Shown piece by piece: positions 3,171 to 42,261 of a DNA stretch of 42,261 nucleotides (within the stretch, counting starts at the first letter, position 1; each line of letters begins with the position of its first letter). The translations under genes and the position numbers were made by a program. The notes under the pieces are model-generated. The model was not told where the DNA came from, did no database searches, and saw nothing but the letters and a program-made list of their open reading frames with translations. The stretch comes from Candidatus Firestoneibacteriota bacterium (GTDB lineage Bacteria; Oederibacteriota; D2-FULL-39-29): NCBI GenBank assembly GCA_903928075.1, contig CAIYPD010000091.1, positions 1 through 42,261 on the forward strand, given 5' to 3'.

Positions 3171-3312
3171 ATAAGGTACAAAGTACGAAGTACAAGTGAC
3201 AAGATTGAAGCAGAATACAAGAGGAGAAGAAGACAGGGAAGAGCAAGAAGACAAGATTGGAGCATAAAATAAATAGGCTTTTCCTTGTTACTTGTACCTT
3301 GTGCCTTGTCCC
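3161..3312. repeat. Heptamer word array with inverted right arm (gatB-rlmD gap)
   Basis: Seven-nucleotide words run in register from 3161: GTTACAA, TAAATAA, GGTACAA, AGTACGA, AGTACAA, GTGACAA, GATTGAA. After a purine-rich core, the reverse-complement words TTGTTAC, TTGTACC, TTGTGCC and TTGTCCC run at 3285-3312, again exactly 7 nt apart. The transcript could therefore fold into a long imperfect hairpin. The first word covers the last codons of gatB. The segment around 3267-3289 recurs at 40316-40338. Confidence 0.8.
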
Positions 3313-7976: not shown

Positions 7977-8200
7977 GGGTACATAAAGGTCTGTAAGGTT
8001 TGTAAAGTTTATAAGGTCCGTAAGGTCTAAAATCTTTGAGGGATATTTGTTTTTGTCTGTTATCCATGCCCGCCAGTCTTTTTGGAGGGTGTGTATCTGC
8101 CTTCAAAAATGTAAATATTTTGATATTTGAGCATCCGCCTGGGCGGAAGCTGCGCTTTTAGCAGCGTAAGGTCTAAAATCGTTGAGGGATATTGTTTTTT
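7977..8200. repeat. Nonamer word array and flanking direct repeat
   Basis: Five words of exactly 9 nt run at 7989-8033: GTCTGTAAG, GTTTGTAAA, GTTTATAAG, GTCCGTAAG, GTCTAAAAT. The block GTAAGGTCTAAAATC plus about 18 further bases (8020-8054) is repeated almost exactly at 8166-8199, enclosing about 110 nt. Between the copies lies a perfect short hairpin ATCCGCC/GGGCGGA near 8140-8154. No gene is apparent. The same nonamer appears inverted at 37356-37391 and directly at 42109-42126. Confidence 0.75.
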
Positions 8201-19171: not shown

Positions 19172-20114
19172 TAAACTTATTGTAGTTAAGGACATAAAGA
19201 AAACCTTTAAAACTGCCGGCGGTTTTTTTGGACAGGCGAAGAGTGTTTATGCCGTGAACAGAGTAAGCTTTGAGATAGAAGAGGGGAAAACCCTGGGACT
19301 GGTCGGTGAAAGCGGCTGCGGAAAAACCACGGTCGGAAAAATAATAGTCAATCTGGAAAGGCCCGACAGCGGGCAGGTTGTCTTTAACGGGAAGAAAATA
19401 TCCGGGCTGGCCGAAAAAGAACTCCGGCCGCTCAGGAATAATATGCAGATCATCTTCCAGGATCCGTTTGCCTCTTTGAACCCGCGGATCCGTATCGGAA
19501 AGGCCATAGGAGAAACGCTTAAGATCTACGGTGTTTCTGATATTGAGAAGAAAGTAAGAGCCATGATAAAAGAGGTGGGACTGCCGGAAGATACATATTA
19601 CAGGTATCCGCATGAGTTTTCCGGCGGTCAGCGCCAGCGGATTTGTATTGCCAGGGCGCTTGTCGGAAGGCCAAAGTTTGTAGTCTGTGATGAACCAATT
19701 TCTTCTCTGGATGTTTCCATTCAATCGCAGATAATAAACTTATTAAAGGATTTGAAAAAGGCCCTGAATCTTACCTATCTTTTTATTTCCCATGATCTGC
19801 GGGTAGTTAAAAATATTTGTGACAATATTTCTGTAATGTATTTCGGCAATATCGTTGAAGAAGGGACAACTGAGGAGATTTTTGCGATGCCGCTGCATCC
19901 GTACACCAGGCTGCTTATAGCGTCCGTTCCTTCCATGGGTGCCGGGAAAAAAGAAAAATATTTTAACCGGCCAATTGATAATAAGACCGCAAACGCAGGC
20001 GGGTGCGCTTTTTATACCAGGTGCCCGAATAGGCAGGATAAATGTGCCGGGGAAATACCTGAACTTGTTGACAGGGGAAAAGGCCATAGAGTAGCATGTC
20101 ATTTGAATTACTGA
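19164..20114 (+). CDS. dppF: Peptide/nickel ABC transporter ATPase, DppF/OppF type
   Basis: A 316-residue second ATPase that pairs with DppD. Walker A GESGCGKTT, signature FSGGQRQRI, Walker B FVVCDEPISSLD and FISHDLRVV are intact, and the C-terminal extension has GGCAFYTRCPNRQDKC with a final Cys near the end. ATG 19164 lies in the dppD end (8-nt overlap). The last codons, for Asn-Tyr, and the stop codon fall in phase with a heptamer repeat array that fills the next gap, so the original C-terminus may have been altered. Confidence 0.94.
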   Translation: MNNKLIVVKDIKKTFKTAGGFFGQAKSVYAVNRVSFEIEEGKTLGLVGESGCGKTTVGKIIVNLERPDSGQVVFNGKKISGLAEKELRPLRNNMQIIFQDPFASLNPRIRIGKAIGETLKIYGVSDIEKKVRAMIKEVGLPEDTYYRYPHEFSGGQRQRICIARALVGRPKFVVCDEPISSLDVSIQSQIINLLKDLKKALNLTYLFISHDLRVVKNICDNISVMYFGNIVEEGTTEEIFAMPLHPYTRLLIASVPSMGAGKKEKYFNRPIDNKTANAGGCAFYTRCPNRQDKCAGEIPELVDRGKGHRVACHLNY

Positions 20115-20213
20115 TTGCTAATAGCTAATTGATAGTTGCGAATTACTTATTGTTGATTACTAATTGCTGATTGCGGATTAGATTAATTAGAAATTAGTAA
20201 ATTAGTTATTTAG
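20107..20213. repeat. CTAATTG-type heptamer array with inverted right arm
   Basis: From 20107 eleven words of exactly 7 nt follow each other: ATTACTG, ATTGCTA, ATAGCTA, ATTGATA, GTTGCGA, ATTACTT, ATTGTTG, ATTACTA, ATTGCTG, ATTGCGG, ATTAGAT. They are followed directly by reverse-complement words TAATTAG, AAATTAG, TAAATTAG, TTATTTAG (the last two are 8 nt). The dppF stop (20112-20114) lies inside the first words. The gap ends with GTAGGAG before the next ATG. Confidence 0.8.
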
Positions 20214-25730: not shown

Positions 25731-26509
25731 AAAAATACTTACTCTCACTGCTTATTGTTTTACTTTTTGTAGCTCCATTGTTTTGCCAGGCCGCAGGTCA
25801 AAAAGAAAAGCGTCTTGAGAATTTTAGTTTCGCGCAGCTTAAGTATCCGGGCGGCAATTGGGATCCTAATCCACTTGCCTGGGAAGGACTATATCCGTTC
25901 TTAACGGGGGTTACTAATATTCATCCCGAAAAAGAAAGGCGGGTGCTTGAACTTTCCAATATGGAGATATTTGAACATTCATTTATTGTCATCAGCGGGG
26001 ATTCCGGTTTTCCGCCGTTTACCGAAGGTGAAGAGCAGAAACTCCGCTGGTTCTTTGACGGAGGCGGCATCTGCTTTATTGACGATGCGACAGGAATACT
26101 TAACTCGGGATTTGATAAGTCAATAAGGCGCGAACTCAAAAAGATATTCCCCACGCAGGAACTTAACAAAATACCGTTCGAACACGCGATATTTTACGCT
26201 TTTCATTTGAAGCCGGCTGTAACCGGGACGCAGGAGGCTGCAGCTTATTTGGAAGGCATAGAATATAACAATCAGACAACGGTGATTTATTCCCGAAATG
26301 ATCTTTTAGGTGTATGGGCCACTGACCGACTCGGTAATCCTGTTAAGAAATGCACTCCGGGAGGGGAGTTGCAGAGGCTTGAGGCAAAGAAACTGGCGGT
26401 AAATATCCTGATGTACGGTTTGACAGGCACTTATAAACTTGATGCAATGCACCGCAACAATATTATAAATAAGCTTAAGTATAAGACACTTCTCAACGGA
26501 AAAGAATGA
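25727..26509 (+). CDS. DUF4159 domain exported protein
   Basis: A 260-residue protein with a Sec signal (about 1-22, ending FCQAAG). The mature part begins FSFAQLKYPGGNWDPNPLAW, the DUF4159 hallmark, and has SGDSGFPPFTEGEEQKLRWF and a GGGICFIDDATG segment typical of a GATase-like fold. DUF4159 is regularly found beside MoxR/VWA genes. The start is GTG 25727 with AAGGAGG upstream; it overlaps the BatA-like stop in GTGA. The stop overlaps the following VWA gene by 4 nt. Function unknown. Confidence 0.88.
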   Translation: MKKYLLSLLIVLLFVAPLFCQAAGQKEKRLENFSFAQLKYPGGNWDPNPLAWEGLYPFLTGVTNIHPEKERRVLELSNMEIFEHSFIVISGDSGFPPFTEGEEQKLRWFFDGGGICFIDDATGILNSGFDKSIRRELKKIFPTQELNKIPFEHAIFYAFHLKPAVTGTQEAAAYLEGIEYNNQTTVIYSRNDLLGVWATDRLGNPVKKCTPGGELQRLEAKKLAVNILMYGLTGTYKLDAMHRNNIINKLKYKTLLNGKE

Positions 26510-28704
26510 TAAAGTTTGAATTTACATATTGGATTCTGGTATTTATTCCGGCAGCTTTTGGCTCCGTCTGGCTGATACTGAGGTTTTTGGATCGGCGCAA
26601 GAGGACAATAGCTCTGCTGCGTGCAATGATTTATCTTGTTCTAATATTCCTTTTGTTGCAGCCGGTGCTGGTTCGGATCGAAAAGAAATTAAAGAAGACG
26701 CCACTGGCCGTTCTTGTTGATGTTTCAAAAAGCATGGACCTTAAGTTTTCCTTTCATAAGTATAGCCGGGTAAAGAATCTTCTTAAAGGCCCGCTGGATA
26801 AACTTTCCGGTTCTCACGAGCTTTCCTTCTATGCGTTTTCTTCGGGGATTTCCAGAGTAACAAAAGAAGAACTGCTAAAACTGGACAACCCGAAAGGGGA
26901 ATTTACGGATATCGGAGGCGTTCTAAACCTGGCCAAAGAAGAAATTGCCGGAAAGGCCAGTTCCAACGGCGGCGCAATACTACTTATAACCGACGGCAAC
27001 CATAATGCGGGACCTGAACCCGTTGAGTTTGCAAAGTCTTTAGGTTTGCCTGTTTCCGTTATAGGTATCGGAGATCTGAAGACGGGTTTTGATATTGAAC
27101 TGAAAAATGTACTGAGCTCGGAGATAGCCTTCAGGAATATTAAAAGCACTTTTACAGGGGTGATTAACGGTTTTAATGCGCAGGGGCGGTTGGTCCGGGT
27201 GGTGCTTAAGAAAGAGGGCGCGGAGATAGAGGCAAAAACAGCGGTACTCGGAAAAGCCGGGACCGAAACTCTGGTCTCCTTTGAATACTTGCCCAAAGAA
27301 ACCGGACTTTTAAAATTCGAACTTTCTATTGTGCCGCAAAACGGCGAAATAAATAAGCAAAATAACCGGCGGGAATTCTTTGTCCGGGTGCTGAAAGAGA
27401 AGGTACGGCTGCTATATATATCCGGAAGCCCCAATTACGAATACAGGTTTTTGAGACAGGTGCTTAATAATAATCCGAACTACGAGGTGGTCACCTTTAT
27501 AATCCTCCGGGGTTTGGGTGATGTACTTCCTTTTCCTGAATCGGAATATACTCTCATACCTTTCCCGGTCTATGAGATATTCACCAAAGAAATATTTAAT
27601 TATGATGTACTCATAATGGAGAATTTCTCCTATAGGAGTTATTTACCTCCGGAACTGTTAAAAAGCATAAACGATTTTGTAGAAAAGGCGGGCGGGGCTT
27701 TTGTAATGCTCGGTGGCCCTGAAGCTTTCGGCAGCGGCGGATATAAGAATACAGCGGTGGAAAATATTCTTCCCGTGGAGCTCTATGATGCAGGAGAGGA
27801 ACAGTTCATCAAGGAACCATTCCGGGTAAAACCGGCAAAACATCCCATAAATATGCTCTCGGAGGTAAAAGGTGAGAACGAAGAGATTTGGGCGCAGCTG
27901 CCAGAATTAAAAGGTTTTAACCGTTTTATGAAGGCAAAACCCGGAGCGGTTGTTCTCGGGACCCATCCTGTACTTAAGGGTTCTGATGGAAATTATCTTC
28001 CTGTGACCGCAGTCTGGCAGAAGGGGAAGGGGAGAGTTCTGGCGATGGCGGCAAATAATACCTGGCGCTGGTCTATGTGGCTGGCCGGAACCGGGAAAGG
28101 CAGTTATTCTTACGGCCGTTACTGGCAGCAGCTTTTTAACTGGCTTATAAGCGCCCCGGATGTAAAGCAAATAATAGTGGCACCCGAGAGGCCGGTTTGC
28201 CGGCAGGGTGAGGAGATAAAGATCCTGGTGACGGTTCTTGATGAGTTTTATCAGTATGAAGAGTCGGCGGCGGTAGCTCTGTCTGTTATAGACCCGAACG
28301 GAAAAACACAGACCTTTAATAATCTTATATACAGCGGAAACGGAGTCTATGAACTTCTTCTTCCCGCTGAGTTGGCAGGCCGGTATATTTTTAATGCAAG
28401 TGTAGAAAAAGGTTCAAAACTTCTCGGGCTTGCGTCAAATTTTGCGACGGTAAACGCCGCAACCTCCGAAGATTATGATATTTTCCAAAATGAAAAATTG
28501 CTCAAGGAGCTAGCCGCCGCAAGTAGCGGTGCTTACTGCGATAGCGGGAATATAGGGGATTTTGTCCTTAAACTTAAATCTTCGCAGATAGAAAGTATTT
28601 CACAGACAAAAGCACCGGTATATGACTCGCCGCTGTTTTTTGTAGTAATAATTGTTTTTTTGGCAATAGAATGGTATCTGAGAAGGATAAGCGGACTGCT
28701 GTGA
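26506..28704 (+). CDS. Large membrane protein with VWA and GATase-like domains
   Basis: A 732-residue protein. Two N-terminal helices (about 6-28 and 36-55) precede a VWA domain with metal site DVSKSMD (near residue 73) and TDGNHNAG. An immunoglobulin-like region (about 195-295) leads to a class I glutamine-amidotransferase-like fold (VRLLYISGSPNYEYRFLRQV, then GGAFVMLGGPEAFGSGGY), which lacks an evident nucleophilic Cys at the elbow and so is probably structural. A C-terminal helix (FFVVIIVFLAIEWYL) and an RRISGLL tail end the protein. It belongs to the translationally coupled MoxR cluster. The following gap is a heptamer array. Confidence 0.88.
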   Translation: MIKFEFTYWILVFIPAAFGSVWLILRFLDRRKRTIALLRAMIYLVLIFLLLQPVLVRIEKKLKKTPLAVLVDVSKSMDLKFSFHKYSRVKNLLKGPLDKLSGSHELSFYAFSSGISRVTKEELLKLDNPKGEFTDIGGVLNLAKEEIAGKASSNGGAILLITDGNHNAGPEPVEFAKSLGLPVSVIGIGDLKTGFDIELKNVLSSEIAFRNIKSTFTGVINGFNAQGRLVRVVLKKEGAEIEAKTAVLGKAGTETLVSFEYLPKETGLLKFELSIVPQNGEINKQNNRREFFVRVLKEKVRLLYISGSPNYEYRFLRQVLNNNPNYEVVTFIILRGLGDVLPFPESEYTLIPFPVYEIFTKEIFNYDVLIMENFSYRSYLPPELLKSINDFVEKAGGAFVMLGGPEAFGSGGYKNTAVENILPVELYDAGEEQFIKEPFRVKPAKHPINMLSEVKGENEEIWAQLPELKGFNRFMKAKPGAVVLGTHPVLKGSDGNYLPVTAVWQKGKGRVLAMAANNTWRWSMWLAGTGKGSYSYGRYWQQLFNWLISAPDVKQIIVAPERPVCRQGEEIKILVTVLDEFYQYEESAAVALSVIDPNGKTQTFNNLIYSGNGVYELLLPAELAGRYIFNASVEKGSKLLGLASNFATVNAATSEDYDIFQNEKLLKELAAASSGAYCDSGNIGDFVLKLKSSQIESISQTKAPVYDSPLFFVVIIVFLAIEWYLRRISGLL

Positions 28705-28862
28705 AAATAAAGTACAAAGTACGAAGTACAAGGTACAAAGTGAAGGAAAGAGGGGAGAAGCTCCCGCTAATATTAATAAAAAGAAATAAGTTTGGCAAAA
28801 GTTTTTGTTCGCCTTCATTAAGTTTGTACTTCGTACTTTGTACCTTGTACTTATCTTTACTT
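28705..28862. repeat. AGTACAA-type heptamer array with precisely inverted arm
   Basis: Left arm at 28711-28745: AGTACAA, AGTACGA, AGTACAA, GGTACAA, AGTGAAG. Right arm at 28824-28851: TTGTACT, TCGTACT, TTGTACC, TTGTACT, the exact reverse complements in a rearranged order. A 78-nt non-repetitive core separates the arms. The RNA could form a long hairpin. Both arms keep strict 7-nt phase. GGGAGG after the right arm serves the next gene. Confidence 0.85.
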
Positions 28863-28874
28863 GGGAGGTAATGG

Positions 28875-29288
28875 ATGAAATTTTATACAAAATATCTTAC
28901 TTTTAATACCAAAAAGCACAGGGAGTATATAAATATTACGGAAGAGGTGCACGAGGCTCTTTTTGCTTCCGGTATCAAAGAAGGGATGATTCTGGTCTCG
29001 GCTATGCATATTACAGCAGGGGTTTATATAAATGACGCGGAGAATGGGATAATTGCAGACATAGATGAATGGGCGGAAAAGCTGGCGCCATTTAAGGAAA
29101 ATTACAACCATCACCGGACAGGGGAGACAAATGGAGATTCCCACCTTAAAAGTCTGCTGGTTCATCATCAAGTCATTATACCGGTGACTGCCGGCGAACT
29201 GGATTTTGGCCCCTGGCAGCAGGTCTATTACGCGGAGTTTGACGGGCAGAGAAGAAAAAGGGTAATAGTAAAGGTGATGGGGGAATGA
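28875..29288 (+). CDS. yjbQ: YjbQ/UPF0047 family protein
   Basis: A 137-residue member of the UPF0047 (YjbQ) family, small trimeric proteins reported to have weak thiamine-phosphate synthase activity. Conserved features are the [13 protein letters not shown] strand, the histidines in ENYNHH and GDSHLKSLL, and the [20 protein letters not shown] close. ATG 28875 is 6 nt after GGGAGG; an out-of-frame ATG at 28871 is not used. It stands between the VWA gene and the DUF4175-like gene, flanked on both sides by heptamer arrays, and may have been inserted into the MoxR cluster. Confidence 0.92.
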
Positions 29289-29433
29289 TAAGGCAAGTAC
29301 AAAGTAAAAAGTACAAGGTACAAAGTTAAAGCAAACGCGAAAATACTCACAAAAATGGGAAATATTTTTCAAGTGAAATAAGAGAGCGAAATTAGGAAGA
29401 TACTTAAATCTCTTACTTTAACCGGGGAGTTTA
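29289..29433. repeat. Heptamer array after yjbQ
   Basis: In-phase words at 29291-29332 are AGGCAAG, TACAAAG, TAAAAAG, TACAAGG, TACAAAG, TTAAAGC. A weak reverse counterpart, TTACTTTAA, lies near 29413-29421. The rest of the 145-nt gap is AT-rich without a clear promoter. GGGGAG sits before the next ATG. Confidence 0.65.
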
Positions 29434-32178: not shown

Positions 32179-32191
32179 TGCCTTAGGAGCT
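32165..32191 (+). other. 10-bp hairpin with the stop codon in its loop
   Basis: AGCTCCTAAG (32165-32174) pairs perfectly with CTTAGGAGCT (32182-32191); the 7-nt loop ATAGTGC contains the TAG stop of the DUF4175-like gene. No T run follows, so it is not a standard terminator. It may slow ribosomes or protect the 3' end. Confidence 0.5.
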
Positions 32192-32499
32192 GATGACACG
32201 GATGGAAAGAGAGATGACACAGATAAAAATAAGCGTTTAAATGAAATAAATGTTTAAACTTTAAGTTAGCGGAGAAATATTATTGATTTACGGTAAAATC
32301 GTTTTTTTTACCTAAAATTTGGAGTTTGATTGGCGTGTTTGCTGTAAATATGAAAAATGTTAAAAAAATAGATCGGGTTTTGTAATTTCCGTAAAATAAT
32401 AATAATATTTTGCCGCGACCTGTATCTGTGTCATCTCACCACCCATCAGTGTCATCAGCCAAACTTGTAAAGTTTGGCAAAAAATGGTAAGATATAAAC
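32179..32499. repeat. 37-nt inverted repeat around an AT-rich core (gap before purF)
   Basis: This 321-nt gap has no gene. Arms at 32189-32225 and 32423-32459 are inverted copies with 32 of 37 positions matching; mismatches cluster in the middle. Each arm carries two GATGACAC words 21 nt apart. The 197-nt core is AT-rich, includes GCGTTTAAATG (32233-32243, also at 34977-34987) and a weak promoter-like pair TTGATT (32326-32331) and TATGAA (32349-32354). The arrangement resembles a MITE or the other inverted word arrays, but no target-site duplication is evident. Confidence 0.75.
32458..32478 (+). other. 9-bp hairpin upstream of purF
   Basis: GCCAAACTT and AAGTTTGGC form a perfect 9-bp stem with loop GTA, starting where the right inverted-repeat arm ends and 21 nt before the purF ATG. 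On the + strand an A run follows. It may be part of the repeat element or a purF leader element; the purF ribosome site is weak. Confidence 0.45.
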
Positions 32500-40259: not shown

Positions 40260-40355
40260 AAAGGCAAAAGACAAGATCGCTAGACTGACGATAGGGACAA
40301 GGGACAGGGATGCAGAAAATAAATAGGCTTTTCCTTGTAGTTTGTACCTTTTTAA
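40260..40355. repeat. Word array with segment duplicated from 3267
   Basis: Left words (GGGACAA, GGGACAG, GGATGCA at about 40294-40314) face right words (TTGTAGT, TTGTACC near 40335-40348) in the usual inverted style. The segment AAAATAAATAGGCTTTTCCT at 40316-40335 is identical to one at 3267-3286. No promoter was recognised. AAAGGAG serves the next gene. Confidence 0.65.
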
Positions 40356-42106: not shown

Positions 42107-42261
42107 TAGTTTATAAGGTTTGGAAGCAAAGCTTTTCTCGATAGGAAGGATATATAGATGTCAACTACCGTTGACATAGCGAGATAAGCAAAGCTTTTCT
42201 CGATAGGAAGGATATATAGATGTCAACTGTCGTTGACATAACGAGATAAGGTCTAAAATCA
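42107..42261. repeat. 62-nt tandem repeat with internal perfect hairpin, plus nonamers
   Basis: Two nonamers GTTTATAAG and GTTTGGAAG (42109-42126) lead into two tandem 62-nt copies at 42126-42187 and 42188-42249. Each copy holds a perfect 8-bp stem ATGTCAAC/GTTGACAT with a 4-nt loop, TACC in copy 1 and TGTC in copy 2, and an outer pairing of TCTCG with CGAGA. GGTCTAAAATC follows at 42250-42260, also found at 8024-8034 and 8170-8180. The array runs off the window edge, so more copies may follow. Confidence 0.8.

Follow-up and report, generated by a model that had tools for sequence, protein, structure and literature searches.

The window analysed here, a 42,261-nucleotide stretch of a Candidatus Firestonebacteria contig, carries a short heptamer-armed element in the 170-bp gap between two genes on the forward strand. 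The upstream gene (26506-28704; GATase1_like, PF07090) ends with the stop codon TGA at 28702-28704 (+), and the downstream gene, of the UPF0047/YjbQ family, occupies 28875-29288 (+). Six nucleotides after the stop codon the left arm begins (28711-28738, +), four heptamers that read directly as AGTACAA AGTACGA AGTACAA GGTACAA and correspond to positions 1-28 of the family model R1 described below. The right arm (28824-28851, -), read on its own strand from the outer end inwards, is AGTACAA GGTACAA AGTACGA AGTACAA, the left-arm phrase offset by one heptamer. Between the arms lies a core (28739-28823, +) that runs from AGT-TGAAGGAAAG through hairpin 1 (GGGA-GAAGC-TCCC, 28753-28765, +), an A/T spacer and hairpin 2 (GGC...GCC with a T-rich loop, 28794-28813, +) to TTCATTA-AGT. 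The Shine-Dalgarno sequence of the downstream gene, GGGAGG (28863-28868, +), follows 11 nt after the element, at a spacing seen family-wide. Directly 3' of the YjbQ gene is a solo heptamer arm, AGTACAA AGTAAAA AGTACAA GGTACAA AGTTAAA (29296-29330, +), for which the array scan detected no right arm.

The initial annotation had described matching heptamers in both arms, inverted with respect to each other, and we confirmed this at both positions. The pattern (RGTACRA)4 fits the two focal arms with 0 mismatches, and found 0 matches in 100 dinucleotide shuffles of the window even when three mismatches were allowed. The RNA fold that the annotation had proposed as a check also bore it out: the region 28700-28870 folds at -56.1 kcal/mol, far better than its shuffles (z -6.6; 0 of 200 as good). 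The focal arms pair best one heptamer out of register (28709-28731 with 28824-28846, 22 of 23 positions), with an identity of 95% at the one-heptamer slip versus 86% in register. The 85 nt between them are not a random spacer but are homologous to the cores of other copies of the same type (class M). The single inversion that the annotation had set up as the alternative was thus the wrong contrast, since both arms are parts of an element that occurs in many copies and has its own two-hairpin core.

This element belongs to a previously undescribed repeat family of Candidatus Firestonebacteria, in which four heptamers of the form NNNACNA are followed by hairpin 1, an A/T spacer, hairpin 2 and four inverted heptamers. 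The cores align from TATA or AGT, through a hairpin 1 of the TGAAGGCGG type whose loop is A-rich, the A/T spacer and a hairpin 2 with a T-rich loop, to TTCATTATA or TTCATTA-AGT; shorter copies with a single small hairpin form class S. The core is nearly symmetric, so that the orientation of an element is ambiguous. For a possible in-place inversion of the core between G000 C12 and G001 C43, the inverted alignment scores 68 versus 8, but unrelated copies reach nearly the same score (66-70). Covariance model R1, built from 12 sequences with the focal element among them, matches the focal copy at exactly 28711-28851 (141 bp, 116.7 bits, E 2.4e-20). The genome-wide statistics rest on searches and fetched loci. 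With both strands counted, R1 matched 15, 24, 58 and 68 times in genomes G000, G001, G002 and G004, and of the five genomes from one GTDB family four have about 8-34 copies each, the genomes being draft MAGs with few relatives within the genus. The R1 search gave no matches in the fifth genome of that family (G003) or in the genomes of the sister family f2, and 31 weaker matches in a genome of a distant family (G018). About 55 same-word arrays were found in the fetched loci of the host genome and 188 in those of five genomes, against 0 in the reversed-sequence control. The number of units per arm has a clear mode of four, and all 46 neighbouring array pairs within 250 bp face inward. A literature search found no description of the repeat family, Rfam yielded only microRNA hairpins of plants or animals that score below the gathering threshold, and phage and plasmid searches gave no match. 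We read 28711-28851 as a copy of a small non-coding palindromic repeat that is dispersed through Firestonebacteria genomes.

Further repeats occur elsewhere in the window. A second paired element at 3175-3312, with arms at 3175-3202 (+) and 3285-3312 (-), has a different core (GCATAAAATAAATAGGCTTTTCC) and matches R1 weakly (E 3e-6); a fragment at 40312-40350 (+; repeat family D18) has the core end in common with it, at 90% over 39 nt. Both fall into a further class of elements that ends in GCAKAAAATAAATAGGCTTTTCCTTGT and has the same heptamer arms around another core; this class is also present at L014, L027, L052 and L065. A 31-bp palindromic repeat, CCTCCTGAGGCGGGCTGCTTCGCAGGATAAG, and its variants are nested in or adjoin several heptamer elements (L014, L015, L052, L065, L070). 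At 42124-42250 the window holds a 62-bp tandem duplication containing AAGCAAAGCTTTTCTCGA, the reverse complement of which lies within heptamer-armed elements of G004 (C38 3597-3766, C41 9926-10204). Further intergenic arrays of short words (AAGGTCTGT 9-mers, AATTACTGATTGCT words and an inverted GATGACACAGATA pair; 7986-8028, 20105-20180, and 32189-32225 with 32423-32459) suggest additional word-repeat families. Outside the window, G018, from another family of the phylum, carries heptamer-armed hairpins (L234, L247, L252) whose words are ATTACTA/ATTACAA and whose core is unrelated.

Among the copies found by the model, the arms draw on three word sets, RNNACRA, NNNACTA and TTKACRA; ACTA arrays are essentially absent from the host genome. 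The two arms of an element use the same vocabulary in 59 of 62 classifiable elements, where 41.9 would be expected within genomes and the largest of 20,000 permutations gave 52. The proposal that the arms co-evolve therefore stands at the level of vocabulary; it fails at the level of base-pair compensation. When arms were swapped within one genome and vocabulary, an element's own arms matched less well in register than swapped arms (76.9% versus 79.5%, z -4.2). At a one-unit slip, own arms matched better than swapped ones in both comparisons (80.8 versus 79.0%, z +3.1; 79.2 versus 77.5%, z +2.8). The best alignment of the arms was at the one-unit slip in 49 of 60 elements, in register in nine and tied between the two in two, and since elements were collected with a pattern and a model that rewards in-register pairing, the bias runs against this offset and not for it. 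An earlier swap test on the first 46 pairs had shown no excess of own over swapped arms (z 0.6 to 1.1) and is superseded by the larger set. Because own arms match better only at the one-heptamer slip, the 'shuffled order' of words, from which the annotation had suggested exchange or co-evolution between the arms, is a family-wide one-heptamer offset and not random exchange. The arms are alike in vocabulary and are not mirrored letter by letter.

The core hairpins, on the other hand, do covary. Of 134 half-cores, 119 form a perfect stem 5 bp or longer, with 65 distinct stem sequences, and two-sided stem changes number 7 versus 2.5 in shuffles. Two species differ in hairpin 1 at the orthologous site L302/L261 (CGATGAC/GTCATCG versus GGCGAA/TTCGCC), where both flanks are 84% identical. 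The sole clean orthologous pair, L064/L136, is the same element in two species; a whole heptamer has been gained or lost in one arm and a single substitution has occurred in the other, neither of them compensated. Divergence of the arms without compensation, the outcome that the annotation had named as speaking against its reading, is what this pair displays. Two further junctions (L310/L273 and L311/L257) have flanks whose identity is 76-85% as far as the element, and one species has an ACTA element where the other has a TT element. Gene junctions thus remain occupied while the occupant, words and stems alike, is replaced wholesale. The focal junction itself lacks the element in a same-genus genome, where the gap is 54 bp. 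This is the one empty site found, and it is too diverged for defining an insertion point.

Placement relative to genes follows a rule: each copy occupies an intergenic gap, and the commonest position is from the stop codon of one gene to the Shine-Dalgarno sequence of the next. A Shine-Dalgarno sequence with a start codon lies at most 70 nt from one end in 53 of 70 elements, and the rate per flank is 39%, versus 8% in shuffled flanks; the spacing modes are 5-6 nt from stop codon to element and 8-10 nt from element to Shine-Dalgarno. Elements lie in same-direction gaps in 36 of 42 cases against a local background of 150 of 182, and divergent gaps are also occupied. The placement at junctions could merely mirror where tight operons tolerate insertions.

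As in a MITE, the element is short and non-coding and has terminal inverted repeats, though these are imperfect and offset by one heptamer. Target-site duplications of 3 nt or more were found in 0 of 69 elements. An autonomous parent with the same ends was sought among the Y1 transposases and at one pair of widely spaced arrays, with no match. The candidate autonomous copy at G004 C92 6313-7222 was set aside after inspection of its translations, which are short hypothetical ORFs with no recognised transposase. Ten Y1 loci had no heptamer arrays nearby, and no RAYT is flanked by the repeat. We rejected RAYT/Y1 as the mobiliser on the absence of linkage and because Y1 occurs in 33 of 40 relatives, most of them without R1 matches; an early hint in its favour, no Y1 in G003, which lacks the repeat too, did not hold up. 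Three loci (L220, L224, L227) contain Y1 (IS200-like) transposase genes flanked by or adjoining inverted repeats of their own (e.g. GTGACAGTCACAGCGTGACTGTCAC; TTAGGGACAGCGACCAATTAT), which resemble published TIRtrons.

Cyanobacterial STRR sequences are intergenic direct repeats of heptamers. TAACTGA repeats are likewise intergenic heptamer direct repeats, of Beggiatoaceae, Cyanobacteria and Bacteroidetes (PMC4679880), and the present family resembles them in its 7-nt units, short direct arrays and intergenic position, often just upstream of start codons, as well as in its patchy occurrence across phyla and in sites that one species has filled and a close relative has not. However, TAACTGA arrays are solo direct repeats of one fixed word, essentially without an inverted partner, whereas the Firestonebacteria elements have 4+4 units as two arms, a two-hairpin core, several variable vocabularies and a strict inward polarity, and are followed by a Shine-Dalgarno sequence. 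The same words occur in Bacteroidota and in one Syntrophaceae genome. The 75 arrays of two Bacteroidota genomes are all solo, with no inverted pair within 270 bp, and fit the definition of solo heptamer direct repeats (PMC4679880), which the Firestonebacteria family with its 46 inward pairs does not. Short intergenic palindromes in inverted pairs, often between co-directional genes, are shared with REP/REPIN sequences and their RAYT transposases (PMC3733652), as is the absence of target duplication; in contrast to these, the heptamer arms lie outside the hairpins and no RAYT has the repeat at its flanks. The family also lacks the GTAG/CGTC tag that REP/REPIN sequences have beside the hairpin (GTAG in 10 and CGTC in 1 of 134 half-cores). 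Correia/nemis and ERIC MITEs (PMC10969869) are similar in size (about 0.1-0.2 kb), non-coding nature, terminal inverted repeats, many copies and potential RNA hairpins in transcripts, but differ in that the present family has no target duplication, no parent that we could find, and ends that each consist of an array of four heptamers, with an offset of one unit between them.

Taken together, we hold with middling confidence that the family is a MITE/REPIN-like palindromic element, mobile or formerly so, whose arms are putative arrays of binding sites read by one protein; both the mobility and the reader are what we infer from the comparisons above. The heptamers would most likely be iterated sites for a single protein that reads both arms, and the candidate reader may be a mobilising enzyme or a nucleic-acid-binding protein. 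Such a reader would make the vocabulary of both arms change jointly, leave word order and in-register pairing free, and allow the ends to differ by one heptamer. A mobile or formerly mobile element read in this way would explain why the arms agree in vocabulary but do not match in register, why the ends are asymmetric and why there is turnover. On the other side, neither a target-site duplication nor an autonomous copy or linked transposase came to light, and a small number of founder copies could have passed on the concordant vocabulary, with no reader maintaining it. G-U exceeds A-C mismatches on the sense strand (156 versus 123), a weak excess in counts that are not independent, which leaves room for a role at the RNA level. 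The main rival, which we consider unlikely, builds on such a role: the DNA would be immobile, and a hairpin transcribed between stop codon and Shine-Dalgarno would govern mRNA processing, stability or translation of the downstream gene. The tight spacing to both signals, the recurrence of an element at one junction in different species and genera, stems that stay paired as their sequence changes and the strong fold all agree with this, and a transcribed hairpin may affect the mRNA. Yet the arms lack in-register compensation, the wobble asymmetry that RNA should leave is weak, copies sit in divergent gaps with a same-direction share near the local background, and the focal junction is without the element in the same genus.

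Two other explanations appear improbable. Heptamer tandem repeats of the TAACTGA/STRR type, grown by slippage and inverted by chance or by local inversion, would fit the whole-heptamer indels and the solo phrases of the same vocabulary in Bacteroidota and the Syntrophaceae genome, but every neighbouring pair faces inward here, none of the arrays is paired in the two Bacteroidota genomes, and the mode is four units per arm; the homologous two-hairpin core between the arms has largely refuted this explanation already. It is equally doubtful that the arms of each element are kept alike by gene conversion or by pairing directly with each other. Vocabulary concordance would agree with such base-pair co-evolution, and in the alignment of 12 sequences the in-register covariation score of the arms does exceed that of column shuffles, but a column shuffle is blind to genome and vocabulary; swaps stratified by both give no excess or a deficit, and the changes in L064/L136 went uncompensated. 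Returning to an element read by one protein, a tentative and rather unlikely extension is that heptamer-coded hairpin elements succeed one another at fixed junctions, which would serve them as persistent docking sites, with the arm vocabulary as an address read by a co-evolving putative protein and the one-heptamer offset of the ends as polarity. If this were true, both arms would switch words together.

Several phyla are reported to have solo heptamer arrays, with no known origin. In the Firestonebacteria family such arrays form the two ends of a defined element that has a core, keeps a fixed polarity and obeys a positional rule, and an origin thereby becomes testable. The family also offers natural experiments in how two ends co-evolve without base-by-base matching and in why gene junctions stay occupied despite the replacement of the sequence that occupies them.
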